A stretch of DNA of 35,364 bases from Acholeplasmataceae bacterium (GTDB lineage: Bacteria > Bacillota_I > Bacilli_A > Acholeplasmatales > Acholeplasmataceae): assembly GCA_016934015.1 (NCBI GenBank), contig JAFGTQ010000020.1, positions 1 through 35,364 on the forward strand. The letters are read 5' to 3'. The notes under the pieces were generated by a model. That model worked only from the letters and a program-made list of their open reading frames with translations, did not search any database and was not told the DNA's origin. Numbering within the stretch: the stretch's first letter is position 1; each line of letters opens with the position of its first letter. Both the position numbers and the translations under genes were made by a program. Shown here piece by piece: positions 1 through 30,183 of the stretch.

Positions 1-840
1 AATAGCAGCGAATACAAAGTTGATGGTGAATTCTTAGCTTATGAAGCTCAAGTTCACACAAATGGTACAATGATGGTTACGACGGTGTCTGTAACTATAG
101 AAAAAGGTAAGATTGTTGACTTCAACATTGATGCACTTCAAAGTACAAAAGTTCAAAATGAAGAAACTCTAGCATGGACTTATACTTGGAATGCAAAGAC
201 TAAAAAGGAACTTGGCGATGACTACAACATGGTAGAATTCGGTGGAGCAATTTCTGAATGGTATGTTCAAGCCGAACTTATCGAAGCTTTCTGGTTAGAA
301 AATGGTGTTGATGCAGTGACTACGAATGCAGAAACTCATGTGATTGACAACGTTTCTGGTGTAACAATCAAAGATGGTGGTTACATTGCATTAGCTCAAG
401 AAGCTGTTCAACTTGCTAAAGAAGGTAAATTCCAATCAATTTACTGTTCAGGTACTAACCTATACAGTGCACACATGGTTGTTACAACAAAAGGTGAAAT
501 CGAATCATTAATGTTAGACACATTACAAATGAACCGTGCATCTACAACTTCTGGTACTTTTGAATGGAATGCTAAGACTAAGCAAGAATTAGGATTTGAA
601 TATAAGATGCATTATGGTGCTTCAGGTGCAGCAGACTTAACAGCATACCAAGCATGGTTAACTGCAAATAACAAGTTAGAATGGTTCCAACAAGCAAACT
701 TAATTACTGATGAAATCATTGAAAATGGTTGGAGTACAAGTGCAGCAGAAAACATTCCTGCAGGCGTTACAATCTCTACTGAAGATTATTTCGTAGTATT
801 AGCTGATTTATTTGCATTTGCTGGTAGTTCAGTTAAATAA
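1..840 (+). CDS. Repeat protein with FMN-binding-like domains (5' end outside window)
   Basis: The reading frame is open from base 1, so this is the C-terminal 279 residues of a longer protein. Two copies of a unit of about 125 residues are visible. Each has a beta-rich part (MVTTVSVTIEKGKI; MVVTTKGEIESLMLDTLQ), a W-N-A-K-T-K-x-E-L-G motif, and a helical part ending in SGVTI or AGVTIST. The layout and the last motif recall FMN-binding domains (PF04205), where S-G-A-T-x-S/T carries covalently bound flavin, but here Val replaces the Ala. A secreted or lipid-anchored location is likely for such proteins; the N-terminus that would show it is not in the window. No transmembrane segment is visible. 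A rho-independent terminator follows directly. The domain assignment is tentative; it could simply be a surface repeat protein. Confidence 0.6.
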   Translation, partial: NSSEYKVDGEFLAYEAQVHTNGTMMVTTVSVTIEKGKIVDFNIDALQSTKVQNEETLAWTYTWNAKTKKELGDDYNMVEFGGAISEWYVQAELIEAFWLENGVDAVTTNAETHVIDNVSGVTIKDGGYIALAQEAVQLAKEGKFQSIYCSGTNLYSAHMVVTTKGEIESLMLDTLQMNRASTTSGTFEWNAKTKQELGFEYKMHYGASGAADLTAYQAWLTANNKLEWFQQANLITDEIIENGWSTSAAENIPAGVTISTEDYFVVLADLFAFAGSSVK

Positions 841-2201: not shown

Positions 2202-3511
2202 AGGTCTTCATTTTCCTTATCTTGATCACTTGAAGGTTTCGTTATTCTGACACGTGATATCACTTTATCTTCAATCGATAAAACTTCAAATTTATATCCT
2301 TCATATACGATGACAACTTCTTCGTTTTCTTCTGGGAATCTTCCAAGTTGTCCTAATATAAAGCCACTAACGGTATCATAATCTTCAACCGGCAATCCAG
2401 CTTCAATAATATCTTCAACATCATGAATATTGGATAAGCCATCAACTTCAAATGTATGGTGATCGACTTGTTTAATTTCTTCCTCTTCATCATCATACTC
2501 ATCAAAAATATTACCAACGATTTCTTCGATTAAATCTTCAATCGTTACAATTCCAGCAGTCCCACCATATTCATCTAAAACGATAGCAATATGGTTTTTT
2601 TGTTTTTGCATTTCTCGAAATAGTTCACTAGTTTTCTTAGAATCCGGAACAAAGTATGGGGGTCTAAGTAAAGCCTTAACGGAGAATTTTTCTTCAGGGT
2701 TATCAATATATCTGAGTAAATCTTTGACGTGCACTGTTCCAATAATGTGATCAATATCACCATCATATACAGGAAATCTTGTAAACTGTTCAGCTCTAAC
2801 ATAATCTAAAACCTGTTTTTTTGTTGATTTCACACTGATTGCTGCAACTTCTGTTCGATGTGTCATCACTTCATCAACAGTGGTATCACCAAATTCGAAT
2901 ATATTTTGAATCATTTCTGATTCTTCTTCATCAATATCACCGGTTTTACTACTTGCTTCAACGATGGTCATAATTTCTTCTTCAGTCACTTTTCGGTCTC
3001 CTTCATTTGGATGAAGTCCAAAAAGTCTACCAAAAACAGACGATAGATAATTAATAACCCAGTATAGTGGTTTAAATAATTGAATCCAGAATGAAACAAA
3101 CCCAATGGTTTGATAAATGACTCGACTTGGGTATTTATTGGCCAATCTTTTTGGAATTAAATGACCAAATACCATATGTAAAATGAGTAAAATAAGTGAA
3201 ATAATAATAAATGAGATAACATTCAAGTATACATTATTATCGGCATTAAGCCATAACCTGACATCATTTTGAAAAGTGTCTAGTGCGATACCTCCGTTAA
3301 CTAAGATGATTAATGTCAAAATCATATGAATCGTTACGGTAAATATCTTTTCATTTTGTTGATATGCTAATACTCGTTTTGCACGTTTATTACCATCTTC
3401 TGCGTCGCTTTCAACTTTGTTGTCCGAAATAGCGACAATTGCTGTCCCTGAGGCGTTTAAAATCGCATAAATGATGATTAATAATGCCATAGAAATTAAT
3501 GGGATTGTCAT
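2198..3511 (-). CDS. CNNM/CorC-HlyC family membrane protein with CBS pair (first gene, divergent paralogue)
   Basis: A 437-residue paralogue of the next gene with the same order: CNNM domain (about 1-165), CBS pair (about 215-275 and 281-340, EYGGT at 314-318), CorC_HlyC (about 346-420), then a charged tail. The start is fixed by GGAGGTGA, nine bases ahead of the ATG. Within the CNNM domain the usual E of S-E-T-A is absent (SGTAIVA at 21-27) and G-E-x-x-P-K reads GHLIPK (116-121). It may therefore bind ions differently, or serve as a partner subunit to the intact paralogue; this is inference. It is first in the operon and is preceded by a leader with its own promoter, an upstream ORF whose stop overlaps this start, and a terminator-like hairpin. 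Confidence 0.92.
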   Translation of the reverse strand: MTIPLISMALLIIIYAILNASGTAIVAISDNKVESDAEDGNKRAKRVLAYQQNEKIFTVTIHMILTLIILVNGGIALDTFQNDVRLWLNADNNVYLNVISFIIISLILLILHMVFGHLIPKRLANKYPSRVIYQTIGFVSFWIQLFKPLYWVINYLSSVFGRLFGLHPNEGDRKVTEEEIMTIVEASSKTGDIDEEESEMIQNIFEFGDTTVDEVMTHRTEVAAISVKSTKKQVLDYVRAEQFTRFPVYDGDIDHIIGTVHVKDLLRYIDNPEEKFSVKALLRPPYFVPDSKKTSELFREMQKQKNHIAIVLDEYGGTAGIVTIEDLIEEIVGNIFDEYDDEEEEIKQVDHHTFEVDGLSNIHDVEDIIEAGLPVEDYDTVSGFILGQLGRFPEENEEVVIVYEGYKFEVLSIEDKVISRVRITKPSSDQDKENEDL

Positions 3512-5593: not shown

Positions 5594-5937
5594 GTGTCAT
5601 CGTGCATAAGCCATGTTCTGTTCCCTTAAAAAGGGTGTGACCATTTATCTCTACATTAAGTAGCATGTGTTTACTTCAATTCGTATTCACATGTGCCCCT
5701 ACCAAAATTTGGGTTTCTAGCTTGAGGGGTTTACCGCGTTTCATCAATCAATTTCTTGATTGCTCGTCTCTGTGGCACATTAAGTCTAGGCCATAGTTTC
5801 CCTTAGGCCATCAAACGCCGTTACGATACATCGTACCCTAAGTTATTTTTTCCTTAGGCACAAACACTACATCCATCTCAGGATGTGCTAGCATGGACTT
5901 TCCTAACCGTTAAGGCTCGGTCACCTTCCAACGACAT
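5594..5937 (-). ncRNA. rnpB: RNase P RNA, type B
   Basis: Catalytic RNA that matures tRNA 5' ends. Read on the minus strand it holds the conserved GGAAAGTCCATGC near the 5' end, TAGTGTTTGTGCCTA, GCGGTAAACCCCTC, GAAACCCAAATTTTGGTAGG and ACAGAACATGGCTTA near the 3' end. The P15-region strings match the Bacillus subtilis type B RNA almost word for word. Helix P1 closes between TGTCGTTG (5936-5929) and CGATGACA (5602-5595). The length of about 344 bases is a little short for type B. A consensus promoter and a terminator frame it. Confidence 0.96.
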
Positions 5938-18333: not shown

Positions 18334-18830
18334 TATTTTTTCTCCTCTTTTTTTGCTAGTCCAAGATTCACATGACAATAACCATTCGGATTTTTAACTA
18401 GATAATCTTGGTGATATGCTTCAGCTTCATCATAGTCTAAACAAGGTTTAACCTTAGTTTGAACTTTGTTATAGTCATTTTTGAAATAGTCTCGCATAAA
18501 TTCATGAATCTTTTCTTCATCTTCTTGATCTAAAAAATAGATACCTGAACGATATTGTCTACCAACATCATGACCTTGTCGATTCAAGCTAAAAGGATTA
18601 ATAATTCTAAAAAATTGATCAAGTACTTGATCTAAATGGATAAGATTCGGATCATAGGTTACCATACATGCTTCTGCATGCGTAGCTGTTCCGTGACATA
18701 CCTCTTCATATGTCGGATTTTTCTTATTACCATCAACGTACCCTACCGATGTATCGATAACACCCTTTAATTGCGCAAAATAGGCTTCAACACCCCAAAA
18801 ACATCCACCAGCTAATACTATTTTTTTCAT
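18333..18830 (-). CDS. msrA: Peptide methionine (S)-S-oxide reductase
   Basis: A 165-residue enzyme reducing methionine-S-sulfoxide in proteins, with thioredoxin as usual electron donor. The catalytic motif [11 protein letters not shown] gives Cys10. The [11 protein letters not shown] and [10 protein letters not shown] segments are typical. The start overlaps the aspS stop as ATGA (18827-18830), so it is translationally coupled to aspartyl-tRNA synthetase, an unusual neighbour for an oxidative-repair enzyme. No MsrB domain is fused. Confidence 0.96.
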
Positions 18831-20545
18831 GATTTGTCCACCTTTATCATTAAGTCATTTAATTGATTAATATCTACTTCAGAAGGAGCTTGCATCATTA
18901 AATCCTTTGCACTTTGTGTTTTAGGAAATGCAATGACATCCTTAATATTTGACGTATGTGTCATAAGCATGACAATACGGTCAAGCCCAAGAGCTAATCC
19001 TCCATGTGGAGGTGTTCCATATTTAAGTGCATCCACGAAGAACCCAAATCGTGTTTCAATATCATGTTTTGATAAACCAAGTGTATCAAACATGAGTCTT
19101 TGAACTTCTTGATTGTGAATACGAATCGACCCACCACCAATTTCATATCCATTTAAAACGATATCATATGCTTTCGCCATCGCATGTTTTGGATCATTTT
19201 TCAAAACGTTCGCATCTTTCGGGGCAGTAAATGGGTGATGCATCGCGTAATAACGCTTTTCTTCTTCGTTATATTCTAGGAGTGGCCAATCAGTAACCCA
19301 TAAAAATTTATATTCATTTTCTGGTATTAATGATAATTCTTCTGCTAAAGCAATTCTCAAACTTGATAAAGCTGACGATGTATTTTCAAATGTTCCCGGA
19401 ACAAAGAAAATCATTTCTTGATCACTTAAATTCAAGTCTTTTATGACATCTGGTGTAAAATATTTAGCAACGCTTCCCGTTAATGCTTGATCTGCAAATT
19501 TAATATAAGCAAGGGCATCTCCATGATTTTTCTTGACAAGTTCTGTGAGTTGATCAATACGCTTTCTTGTAATACTTGAAGCGTTTTTAATTCTTAAGCT
19601 TCGAACAAACTCTTTTCCTTCAAATAAAGGAATATTTAATGGTTTCAATGTGTTTGTAAAGTTTTGAATTTTTAAATCATAACGAAGGTCAGGTTTATCA
19701 GTGCCATATTGTGTCATTGCATCCAAATAGGTCATTCTTAAAAAAGGTGTCTCTATCTCAATATTTAAGACATCATGGAATAAATTTTTCATTAATTTTT
19801 CAATCACATTTTGAATATCTTCTTCATCAATAAAAGACGCTTCAACGTCGATTTGTGTAAATTCTGGTTGACGATCTGCTCTTAAGTCTTCATCTCTGAA
19901 ACAACGGGCAATTTGAAAATACTTTTCAAATCCAGCAACCATAAAGAGCTGTTTATAGATTTGTGGCGATTGAGGAAGCGCGAAAAATGTCCCTGGATAC
20001 AGTCTAGAAGGCACCAAATAGTCTCTTGCACCCTCAGGTGTAGATTTACCTAGGATTGGTGTTTCAAGCTCATAGAAACCCGATTCCACTAATGTTCTTC
20101 GAATCGACTGCGTAATCTCATGACGTTTAATTAAATAATTTTGCATCACTGGACGACGTAAGTCTAAATAACGATATTTTAATCTGGTTTCTTCTAAAGC
20201 ATCCGACTCATCAGAAATCATGATGGGTGGAGTTTCTGCAGTTGATAAAATCGTTAAGTTTGTGATATCCACTTCAATATCACCCGTATGCATCAATTTA
20301 TTTTTACTTTCTCTTTCAATCACAAGTCCTTCAATATCAATGACATATTCATTTCTAATTTTCAATGCAGTTTGATAATTCGAATTTTCAGGTTTGCACA
20401 AAAGTTGTGTGATACCATATCGGTCTCTTAGGTCGATAAAAAGTAATCCACCAAGGTTTCTTACTTTTGCGACCCAACCTTTTAAATGGACAGATTCATT
20501 CAAATTTTTTAATGTTAATTCACCATTATGGTGCGTGTATTTCAT
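18827..20545 (-). CDS. aspS: Aspartyl-tRNA synthetase
   Basis: A 572-residue class IIb synthetase charging tRNA-Asp. N-terminal OB-fold anticodon-binding domain (about 15-105, with GWVAKVRNLGGLLFIDLRDR), catalytic core with motif 2 FRDEDLRADRQPEFTQ, the bacterial GAD insertion (about 290-410), and motif 3 GLALGLDRI near the C-terminus. One base separates it from hisS. Whether it also charges tRNA-Asn cannot be told from this window. Expression depends on the T-box ahead of the acetyltransferase gene. Confidence 0.98.
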   Translation of the reverse strand: MKYTHHNGELTLKNLNESVHLKGWVAKVRNLGGLLFIDLRDRYGITQLLCKPENSNYQTALKIRNEYVIDIEGLVIERESKNKLMHTGDIEVDITNLTILSTAETPPIMISDESDALEETRLKYRYLDLRRPVMQNYLIKRHEITQSIRRTLVESGFYELETPILGKSTPEGARDYLVPSRLYPGTFFALPQSPQIYKQLFMVAGFEKYFQIARCFRDEDLRADRQPEFTQIDVEASFIDEEDIQNVIEKLMKNLFHDVLNIEIETPFLRMTYLDAMTQYGTDKPDLRYDLKIQNFTNTLKPLNIPLFEGKEFVRSLRIKNASSITRKRIDQLTELVKKNHGDALAYIKFADQALTGSVAKYFTPDVIKDLNLSDQEMIFFVPGTFENTSSALSSLRIALAEELSLIPENEYKFLWVTDWPLLEYNEEEKRYYAMHHPFTAPKDANVLKNDPKHAMAKAYDIVLNGYEIGGGSIRIHNQEVQRLMFDTLGLSKHDIETRFGFFVDALKYGTPPHGGLALGLDRIVMLMTHTSNIKDVIAFPKTQSAKDLMMQAPSEVDINQLNDLMIKVDKS

Positions 20546-20546
20546 G

Positions 20547-21815
20547 TTATTTACCTACTTTTTCCTTAAGATATTGTGTTATTTCTGAAATCTTTATATT
20601 TTCTTGCACTTCTGTTTGTGTATCCTTAATTCCTACAAATCCTTGTTGATATTCATCTTGACCGATAATGACTAAATATCTTGCTTCCATCTTTAAAGCG
20701 TGTTTGAGTTGACCCTTAAAGCTTTTGAACGAATAATTAATATCACTTTGTAAATCTTGATGTCTTAAATCGTATAAAACTTTTGATGCGAATGTTTTAA
20801 GAGAATCATCAAGAACTAAGATATATGCATCAAGTGATTTTTCTTTAACAAGTTCGATATGTTCAGCTTCTAGAGCTAATAATAATCTTTCCATGCCACA
20901 TGCAAAACCAATACCACCTAAATCAGGTCCACCAAGTTCTTTCACTAAGCTTTGGTATCGACCGCCACCACCCAAAACATTTTGAGCACCAAAACCTTCA
21001 ATATCTGCTTCAATTTCAAATACTGTGTGACTATAATAATCGAGACCTCTCACCAATTTAGGTGCAATTTCATAAACAATTCCCACAGCTTCTAAATGTT
21101 TTATAACTTCATCAAAATAAGCTTTTGATTCACTATTTAAGTGATCCAGTGGAACTGGTGCTTTTTTAACAGCTACGTGGTGTTGATCAATCTTACAGTC
21201 TAGAATCCGAAGTGGATTCTTATCAATTCTTTCTTGGCAATCTCGGCATAAAGTATGCACATGAGGTCTAAAATGAGACTCCAAAGCTTCTTGATAGGCT
21301 CTTCTTGATGCATCATCACCAAGCGTATTGATTCTAACTCTTACACCTTTTAATCCAAGGCGACGGATAAAATCATAAGCAAGGATAATCATTTCACTAT
21401 CAAGTTGTGGATTTACTGTACCAATGGCTTCAACACCAAATTGATAGAACTGACGATATCTGCCTTTTTGAGGGCGTTCATAACGAAAATTAGGACCAAT
21501 ATAAAATATTTTTTCGAGTTCTTGAGAAGCATATAATTTATTTTCGACATAACTGCGAATGACACCTGCAGTTCCTTCAGGTCTTAAAGTTAATTTGCGA
21601 TCTCCACGATCTAAAAAATCATATGTTTCTTTAGTTACCATGTCAGATAATTCAGATTGGCGATGAAAAACTTCGCTATATTCCATCATCGGAGTACGCA
21701 TTTCTTTATAGTTATATAATGTTAATGTTTTACGGATAATATCCTCTAAAGCTTGCCATTTATAAGATTCTTGGGGTAAAACATCATAGGTTCCTTTGAC
21801 TCTGTTGATACTCAT
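20547..21815 (-). CDS. hisS: Histidyl-tRNA synthetase
   Basis: A 422-residue class II synthetase charging tRNA-His. KGTYDVLP at the N-terminus, TLRPEGT (motif 2 region), YRQFYQFGVEAIG, the histidine-A motif GLDYYSHTVFE, and motif 3 GIGFACGMERL are present; the C-terminal anticodon domain runs from about 325. AAGGAGG lies ahead of the ATG, inside the 3' end of the acetyltransferase gene (32-base overlap). Confidence 0.98.
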   Translation of the reverse strand: MSINRVKGTYDVLPQESYKWQALEDIIRKTLTLYNYKEMRTPMMEYSEVFHRQSELSDMVTKETYDFLDRGDRKLTLRPEGTAGVIRSYVENKLYASQELEKIFYIGPNFRYERPQKGRYRQFYQFGVEAIGTVNPQLDSEMIILAYDFIRRLGLKGVRVRINTLGDDASRRAYQEALESHFRPHVHTLCRDCQERIDKNPLRILDCKIDQHHVAVKKAPVPLDHLNSESKAYFDEVIKHLEAVGIVYEIAPKLVRGLDYYSHTVFEIEADIEGFGAQNVLGGGGRYQSLVKELGGPDLGGIGFACGMERLLLALEAEHIELVKEKSLDAYILVLDDSLKTFASKVLYDLRHQDLQSDINYSFKSFKGQLKHALKMEARYLVIIGQDEYQQGFVGIKDTQTEVQENIKISEITQYLKEKVGK

Positions 21816-22377
21816 CGTATTCCTCCTTGGTTAATTCATAATTCTTTAATGTGACCAAACGTTTATCACGCAATTTTTTTAATTGAAACAAAGTTTCTTC
21901 CGTAAATCGAAACGGTGTTTTTTTGATAATTTTTTCTGATGCGACATTATCGAGCATATGTCTAATTCTTAATTTTTTATATTCAAAATGATGAAATCCT
22001 AAATCAATCATGTATTGAAGCGCATGGCTCATAATGCCTTGATTCCAATAATCTTCATGGAGTGCGTAACCAATTTCTACACTTTGATCTTTATCATGCT
22101 TCGTGTGATAGTCAATCGTACCAATCATTTTATGTTTTTTTAGATCAACTATCGCATAACCAATGGGTAAACCCCTTTTTAATCGAGGCATGAAGATGAA
22201 CTTTATTGATCTTTTCGCTTCAACTGGAAGTACAAATGGTCCCCAATTCAAGTACTTCGTGACTTCGGGATTTGATCCATACTCAAACATATCTTGATAA
22301 TCTTTCACTTCGATTTCGCGAAGCAGATAGTCTCCAAACTCATGATTTGGTAGACGAAGCTTTTTCTTATCTCTCAA
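21784..22377 (-). CDS. GNAT-family N-acetyltransferase (RimJ-like)
   Basis: A 197-residue acetyltransferase of the RimJ/RimL type that moves the acetyl group of acetyl-CoA to a protein N-terminus or small amine; the substrate is unknown. Typical features are EVTKYLNWGP, VEIGYALHEDYWNQGIMSHAL (acetyl-CoA region) and RHMLDNVASEKIIKK. Start choice: TTG at 22377 has GAGG six bases ahead. An in-frame GTG at 22389 overlaps that SD and has only terminator sequence upstream. It is the first gene after the T-box terminator and overlaps hisS. Confidence 0.85.
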   Translation of the reverse strand: MRDKKKLRLPNHEFGDYLLREIEVKDYQDMFEYGSNPEVTKYLNWGPFVLPVEAKRSIKFIFMPRLKRGLPIGYAIVDLKKHKMIGTIDYHTKHDKDQSVEIGYALHEDYWNQGIMSHALQYMIDLGFHHFEYKKLRIRHMLDNVASEKIIKKTPFRFTEETLFQLKKLRDKRLVTLKNYELTKEEYDEYQQSQRNL

Positions 22378-22390
22378 TTTCTTCCTCACA

Positions 22391-22424
22391 ATATAAAAAC
22401 GTCCTTAAAAACATCTAAGGACGT
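22391..22424 (-). terminator. T-box terminator
   Basis: ACGTCCTTA (22424-22416) pairs with TAAGGACGT (22407-22399), followed by TTTTTATAT. The 5' strand overlaps the antiterminator 3' strand CCTTAG (22420-22415). Confidence 0.92.
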
Positions 22425-22544
22425 ATAATTACGCGGTACCACCTTAGTTCTAGAAATATCTAGCCCTCAATTTGTGAATGTCTCAAAGGGTGTCACCTCT
22501 TATAATATGCATTATAAAGCCCTTATCACAGACGATGAAATTCT
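22391..22544 (-). ncRNA. T-box leader of the acetyltransferase-hisS-aspS operon, small Stem I
   Basis: The T-box sequence CTAAGGTGGTACCGCG (22447-22432) forms the antiterminator with CCTTAG (22420-22415), mutually exclusive with the terminator. Stem III is CTAGA/TCTAG (22463-22450). Stem I is only about 58 bases (22530-22473): TGTGA/TCACA, then AAGGG/CCCTT, then a TTATAAT/ATTATAA hairpin. Two 3'-side internal loops contain GACAC (22494-22490) and GACAT (22482-22478). In each, an Asp codon (GAC) overlaps a His codon (CAC or CAT). Uncharged tRNA should promote read-through, as known for T-boxes. Confidence 0.93.
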
Positions 22545-22550
22545 AATACA

Positions 22551-22579
22551 ATCATATCTTAAAATCGTATTTTTGTCAA
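22551..22579 (-). promoter_or_regulatory. Promoter of the T-box operon
   Basis: TTGACA (22579-22574), 17-base spacer, TATGAT (22556-22551), directly after the dtd stop; predicted start near 22544. Confidence 0.88.
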
Positions 22580-30072: not shown

Positions 30073-30096
30073 AAATAGGAGTTGAGTGATTATCAA

Positions 30097-30177
30097 CTAT
30101 CCCTACGCTGGTATGATCCAGATCAGGTTCGCGGGTCGACTTTTGGTCCTCTCAGCTTATAGCTCCCCGTATTGATC
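30097..30177 (-). ncRNA. TPP riboswitch (THI element)
   Basis: On the minus strand the conserved elements appear in order: ACGGGGAGC, GCTGAGAGGA, GAACCTGATCTGGATCATAC and CAGCGTAGGGAT. It lies between a promoter and a terminator ahead of thiT, so high TPP should shut off thiamine uptake by termination. Confidence 0.97.
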
Positions 30178-30183
30178 ACCTAT

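Follow-up and report, generated by a model that had tools for sequence, protein, structure and literature searches.

A candidate minimal transcriptional T-box for tRNA-Asp without an elbow-binding arm in Acholeplasmataceae

The window, the whole stretch of 35,364 nucleotides analysed here, carries on its minus strand the gene run GNAT-hisS-aspS-msrA-deaminase downstream of a leader that separates it from dtd (Table 1). A sequence-only reading of this DNA had proposed a transcriptional T-box with a miniature Stem I at 22450-22544. The site was right; the whole feature, from promoter through terminator, is larger and spans 22579-22395 on the minus strand. The near-perfect promoter that had been described is present, TTGACA-17-TATGAT being near-consensus. 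Since the GNAT gene lies between the T-box and hisS, it is predicted to be under tRNA-Asp control as well, as a member of the same operon.

Table 1. Features of the leader, its operon and other structured RNAs of the window (window coordinates)
Feature	Coordinates	Strand	Remarks
Terminator-type T-box	22395-22544	-	between dtd and the GNAT-hisS-aspS operon
dtd stop	22580		adjoins -35 box
-35 box TTGACA	22574-22579	-	directly 3′ of dtd stop codon; position kept in relatives
-10 box TATGAT	22551-22556	-	17-nt spacer; predicted start near 22544
Stem I	22480-22533	-	54 nt in total; long-form members of the family have 92-95 nt
Base helix, 5′ strand GUC	22531-22533	-	partner GAC 22482-22480
K-turn, bulge UGU + GA	22526-22530	-	tandem GA 22527-22526 against GA 22484-22483
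Helix AAGGG above K-turn	22520-22524	-	partner CCCUU 22490-22486
Short distal hairpin, 8 bp	22499-22518	-	22518-22511 with 22506-22499, loop GCAU; replaces elbow-binding arm
Specifier bulge GUGACA	22491-22496	-	complementary to tRNA-Asp anticodon-loop positions 33-38 (UGUCAC)
Specifier codon GAC (Asp)	22492-22494	-	next base purine A22491; GAC invariant
Linker, Stem I to Stem III	22464-22479	-	16 nt; 3′ end is purine run GAGGG
Stem III CUAGA-UAUU-UCUAG	22450-22463	-	
Antiterminator	22415-22447	-	CUAAGG / bulge UGGUACC (22441-22435) / GCG ... CGU CCUUAG
Intrinsic terminator CGUCCUUAGAUGUUUUUAAGGACG + U-run	22395-22423	-	hairpin 22423-22400
GNAT acetyltransferase (PF13302)	21784-22389	-	first gene of regulated operon
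hisS	20547-21815	-	
aspS	18827-20545	-	
TPP riboswitch	30082-30179	-	62.6 bits
Class B RNase P RNA	5602-5932	-	264.8 bits

The switching half of the leader has the expected parts of a transcriptional T-box. The T-box core AAGGTGGTACCGCG is found in the leader, the T-box sequence with its UGGN bulge reads AAGGUGGUACCGCG, antiterminator helices A1 and A2 are conserved, and the UGGU of the bulge is the complement for the NCCA end of a tRNA. The segment CGUCCUUAG is common to terminator and antiterminator, making the two folds mutually exclusive as in the transcriptional class, and the terminator has a folding energy of -14.3 kcal/mol (z -6.05). Stem III shows its hallmark arrangement of a preceding purine run and a 3′ AA (GAGGG-Stem III-AA). 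Stem I, previously estimated at about 58 bases and thus only slightly overstated, bears a 3′ bulge, AGGUGACA, which holds GAC at 22494-22492, and the K-turn columns UGA and GAG are invariant in the alignment of relatives. The TTATAAT/ATTATAA hairpin thought to stand in for the distal arm was found with a GCAT loop; its sequence varies widely between genera, and it is missing in one genome (G013). No elbow-binding motif was detected in the window's Stem I, and neither a Stem II nor a Stem IIA/B pseudoknot in its leader, where the linker before Stem III leaves no space for them. By itself, Stem I has an unremarkable folding energy (z -0.16), and single-sequence folding of the full leader did not return it, another fold being preferred; Stem I is therefore established by comparative evidence. 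A competing helix in the window's leader, CCCUUUG/CAAAUUGAGGG, was rejected as not conserved on inspection by eye.

The covariance-model check suggested by the sequence-only reading gave a match below threshold. At the gathering threshold, Rfam reported no T-box in the window. Under an E-value threshold, RF00230 matched 22555-22414 on the minus strand with 54.2 bits (E 3.3e-11), below its gathering score of 93, as would be expected for an element without most of Stem I; this score overlooks short T-boxes such as the present one. Among the 12 credible T-boxes of the same genome (83% complete), the window's element has a match of 142 nt, shorter than any of the others at 171-239 nt, and the remaining 11 all possess conserved elbow-binding loop sequences as judged by eye.

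Leaders of the same operon were compared, as that reading had also proposed, at the hisS loci of 40 relatives and with a model (R1) built from 12 short elements and run over 88 Acholeplasmataceae genomes. The R1 search and the hisS loci yielded 31 short elements, one intermediate and four long ones, 36 in all, each before hisS and with the GUGAC motif; named carriers include Peloplasma aerotolerans M4Ah (L076), which is cultured and has a short element, and Tenericutes bacterium MO-XQ (L090). Short elements, with a Stem I of 36-59 nt, precede the same operon in 31 genomes of eight genera. The extreme case (L204 in G013, 2359-2394, minus strand) has a Stem I of 36 nt that lacks a distal hairpin and carries its specifier in the apical loop. 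The intermediate element (L201 in G061, 211-284, plus strand) has a Stem I of 74 nt whose long distal hairpin is devoid of the elbow-binding motif, and is perhaps a step in arm loss. The four long elements, with a Stem I of 92-95 nt and AGCGA...GUGAAAG arms, come from one of the short-form genera. Absence of the elbow-binding arm, as had been noticed for the window, is thus shared by 31 short and one intermediate element. The further strong R1 matches inspected in the family proved to be T-boxes of ordinary length whose Stem I the alignment had treated as deleted, and R1, a lineage-specific model, gave no strong match outside Acholeplasmataceae in 395 genomes of the class and 392 of the phylum.

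Substitutions within Stem I follow the proposed pairing. In its helices 92.5% of cells are paired and four pairs have changed on both sides, the number of both-sided cells being 14 as compared with 3.9 after shuffling; covariation is 0.209 versus 0.114 in shuffled and at most 0.121 in slid versions, the shuffles leaving relatedness among genomes in. A change from U-A to C-G in the base helix occurs in eight relatives, and the MAFFT alignment of the distal hairpins was too shifted for pair counts. A different conserved fold, which the sequence-only reading had named as an observation that would speak against it, is contradicted by this covariation. Whether Stem I is short or long, about 17 nt separate it from the -10 box in almost every one of the 36 genomes; the exceptions include two in which the best-scoring promoter box pair lies 27-28 nt from Stem I. 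Judging from these sequence comparisons, the layout in the window is not a product of chance: the same arrangement recurs in 31 genomes of eight genera, with covariation in Stem I and a fixed promoter distance. The sequence-only reading had made no mention of this family-wide spread, of the missing Stem II, or of the Asp specificity and GUGACA extension described below.

GAC is invariant in all 31 short elements and fits an operon that contains aspS. The overlapping His codon CAC is broken in five of them, by GACAA in G013, G052 and G053 and by GACGC in G019 and G100. By pattern search, CUGUCAC was detected as the tRNA-Asp anticodon loop in 32 of the 40 genomes, including that of the window, whose tRNA-Asp copy is not fully readable and is probably cut off by a contig end; the discriminator, read in three relatives, is G73 and fits UGGU/UGGC. 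On this conservation, the specifier is GAC (Asp) and not a His codon. Two other hisS leaders carry GGC at the specifier position: that of G010 (L212, GUGGCACC), with a long Stem I and GGC instead of GAC despite hisS downstream, a possible change of specificity, and that of G104 (L304, AAGGCACUUC), from another family of the order.

The two bases that precede the codon are conserved as well. GUGAC followed by A or G occurs in 32 of 32 arm-less elements and complements the tRNA-Asp loop at positions 33-38. Most long Asp elements of the order have GGGACA, AAGACA, UAGACA or a similar sequence instead, and GUGACA is found in six out of 41. These six carriers rule out GUGACA as an exclusive mark of short forms, and GUGACA alone is therefore no cause of arm loss. 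Fisher's exact test gives p 1e-14 (31/31 short versus 6/41 long Asp elements), the related genomes being non-independent; corrected for relatedness, arm loss and GUGAC are not significantly associated, with three independent pairs on the hisS tree, about two for and none against. Duplexes with the loop have a predicted energy of about -7 kcal/mol for GUGACA versus -4.2 kcal/mol for the usual GGGACA. Because the purine after the codon is reported to stack and to form no pair with U33 (PMC7583486), five base pairs plus a 3′ purine are likely, with six pairs possible if the A pairs with U33; the anticodon loop may be strained when C38 is paired.

On the hisS tree, which has several long branches, the short forms require several state changes. 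Placing them in one clade was rejected by the AU test (p 1e-47 overall and 2e-4 within the inner clade), which speaks against a single origin. Repeated loss of the arm is the simplest reading because regain is unlikely, and the arm was probably lost repeatedly in Acholeplasmataceae, the number of losses being uncertain given the long hisS branches. It is also possible that short forms spread by exchange of hisS together with its leader. GUGACA in the long members of one short-form genus suggests that there the extension preceded arm loss.

The reading that we consider likely, with fair confidence, is a minimal tRNA-Asp transcriptional T-box in which extended anticodon-loop pairing takes the place of the elbow contact and whose arm was lost repeatedly. 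The terminator-type T-box would sense uncharged tRNA-Asp and control the GNAT-hisS-aspS operon, its Stem I, reduced to a K-turn stem without an elbow-binding arm, serving to present the specifier. The tRNA would be held at two sites only, the specifier bulge and, through its NCCA end, the antiterminator bulge. The 5′-GU-3′ before GAC would add A37 and C38 of the tRNA-Asp loop to the codon-anticodon helix, and this stronger grip on the specifier would probably substitute for the elbow contact, making the arm dispensable and allowing its loss several times. We infer tRNA binding, the extra base pairs, compensation, and repeated loss as against gene exchange from the sequences compared. A broader formulation, to which we give even chances, is that of a distinct T-box subclass defined by an extended specifier:anticodon-loop helix of 5-6 bp together with the NCCA contact and by the lack of both elbow arm and Stem II, in which the extension came first and arms were then lost repeatedly, down to the 36-nt Stem I of G013.

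An alternative which we regard as unlikely, while deserving of attention, accepts the minimal T-box but takes the invariant GU as structural, for instance shaping the specifier bulge against the K-turn stem or surviving from the GUGAA strand found in the classical specifier loop, with tRNA affinity that is weak or aided by a protein. GUGAA does precede GAC in distant Asp T-boxes (L096, L098), six long forms carry GU without needing it, and the phylogenetically corrected test, with its three independent pairs, is underpowered. Yet short forms retain little or nothing of the 5′ strand of the classical specifier loop while GU persists in 32 of 32, and long relatives have other dinucleotides (GG, AG, CA) despite the same tRNA loop. 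Loss of both known accessory tRNA contacts, together with a Stem I that is not favoured in single-sequence folding of the leader, could also point to a T-box in decay that has ceased to bind tRNA and serves only as a constitutive attenuator; we hold this to be very improbable, as specifier, K-turn, Stem III purines, T-box bulge, antiterminator and terminator are kept in 31 genomes and Stem I covaries.

A response to tRNA-His, alone or together with tRNA-Asp, through the overlapping GAC and CAC of GACAC would suit an operon that encodes both synthetases, and GACAC is present in 26 of the 31 short elements, the window's included. Against it, conservation extends to GAC and not to CAC, so that dual reading was rejected, and UGGU/UGGC fits the G73 of tRNA-Asp, whereas tRNA-His normally carries C73; we rate this reading a shade lower still. 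Least probable of all is a longer Stem I supplied by a transcript that starts inside dtd, the other observation that the sequence-only reading had named against itself. Read-through from dtd could occur, and no positive support for such a start was found; Stem I is closed at 22533 by the base helix and K-turn, and the promoter stands at a nearly fixed 17 nt from Stem I across 36 genomes, the same for long forms. This constant distance, in short and long forms, leaves no hidden upstream Stem I.

Returning to the minimal tRNA-Asp T-box, its layout departs from what is established for the class. Transcriptional T-boxes generally require the elbow-binding arm, a Stem I without the arm barely binds tRNA in the absence of Stem II, arm-less translational T-boxes need Stem II, and all known T-box varieties form three codon-anticodon pairs (PMC7583486). 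A literature search of limited reach returned no description of a transcriptional T-box devoid of both elbow arm and Stem II. The conserved natural element described here departs from the arm-required and Stem II-required rules and may break the three-pair rule. If functional, it would rank with the smallest RNAs of the T-box kind that suffice to sense tRNA, and the requirements for rapid tRNA capture by a co-transcriptional T-box would become directly testable.

The glyQS-type T-box shares with the window's element the terminator/antiterminator switch, the K-turn, the short linker to Stem III and the lack of Stem II and IIA/B; it differs in its long Stem I with an elbow arm and its GGC specifier, where the window has an armless Stem I and GAC with the GU extension. 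The ultrashort translational ileS T-boxes of Actinobacteria, to which the sequence-only reading had compared the element, are an apt parallel in size, with a truncated Stem I, no elbow motif and a retained K-turn, and the G013 element resembles them further by its specifier in the apical loop. The parallel fails in mechanism: ileS T-boxes act on translation, whereas the window has a terminator hairpin and U-run and no ribosome-binding-site sequestration, and their tRNA binding depends on Stem II and the IIA/B pseudoknot (PMC7583486, PMC10651847), both missing here. Closest are the long-Stem I Asp T-boxes before hisS-aspS in Acholeplasmatales (L025, L202, L209), which have in common with it the operon, GAC, Stem III, the antiterminator, promoter spacing within the family and, in the f1/f5 members inspected, the lack of Stem II, but which differ by a Stem I of 92-95 nt with its arm and mostly by GGGACA or other dinucleotides in place of GUGACA. 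Long, intermediate and short versions are all found in the same operon of close relatives.
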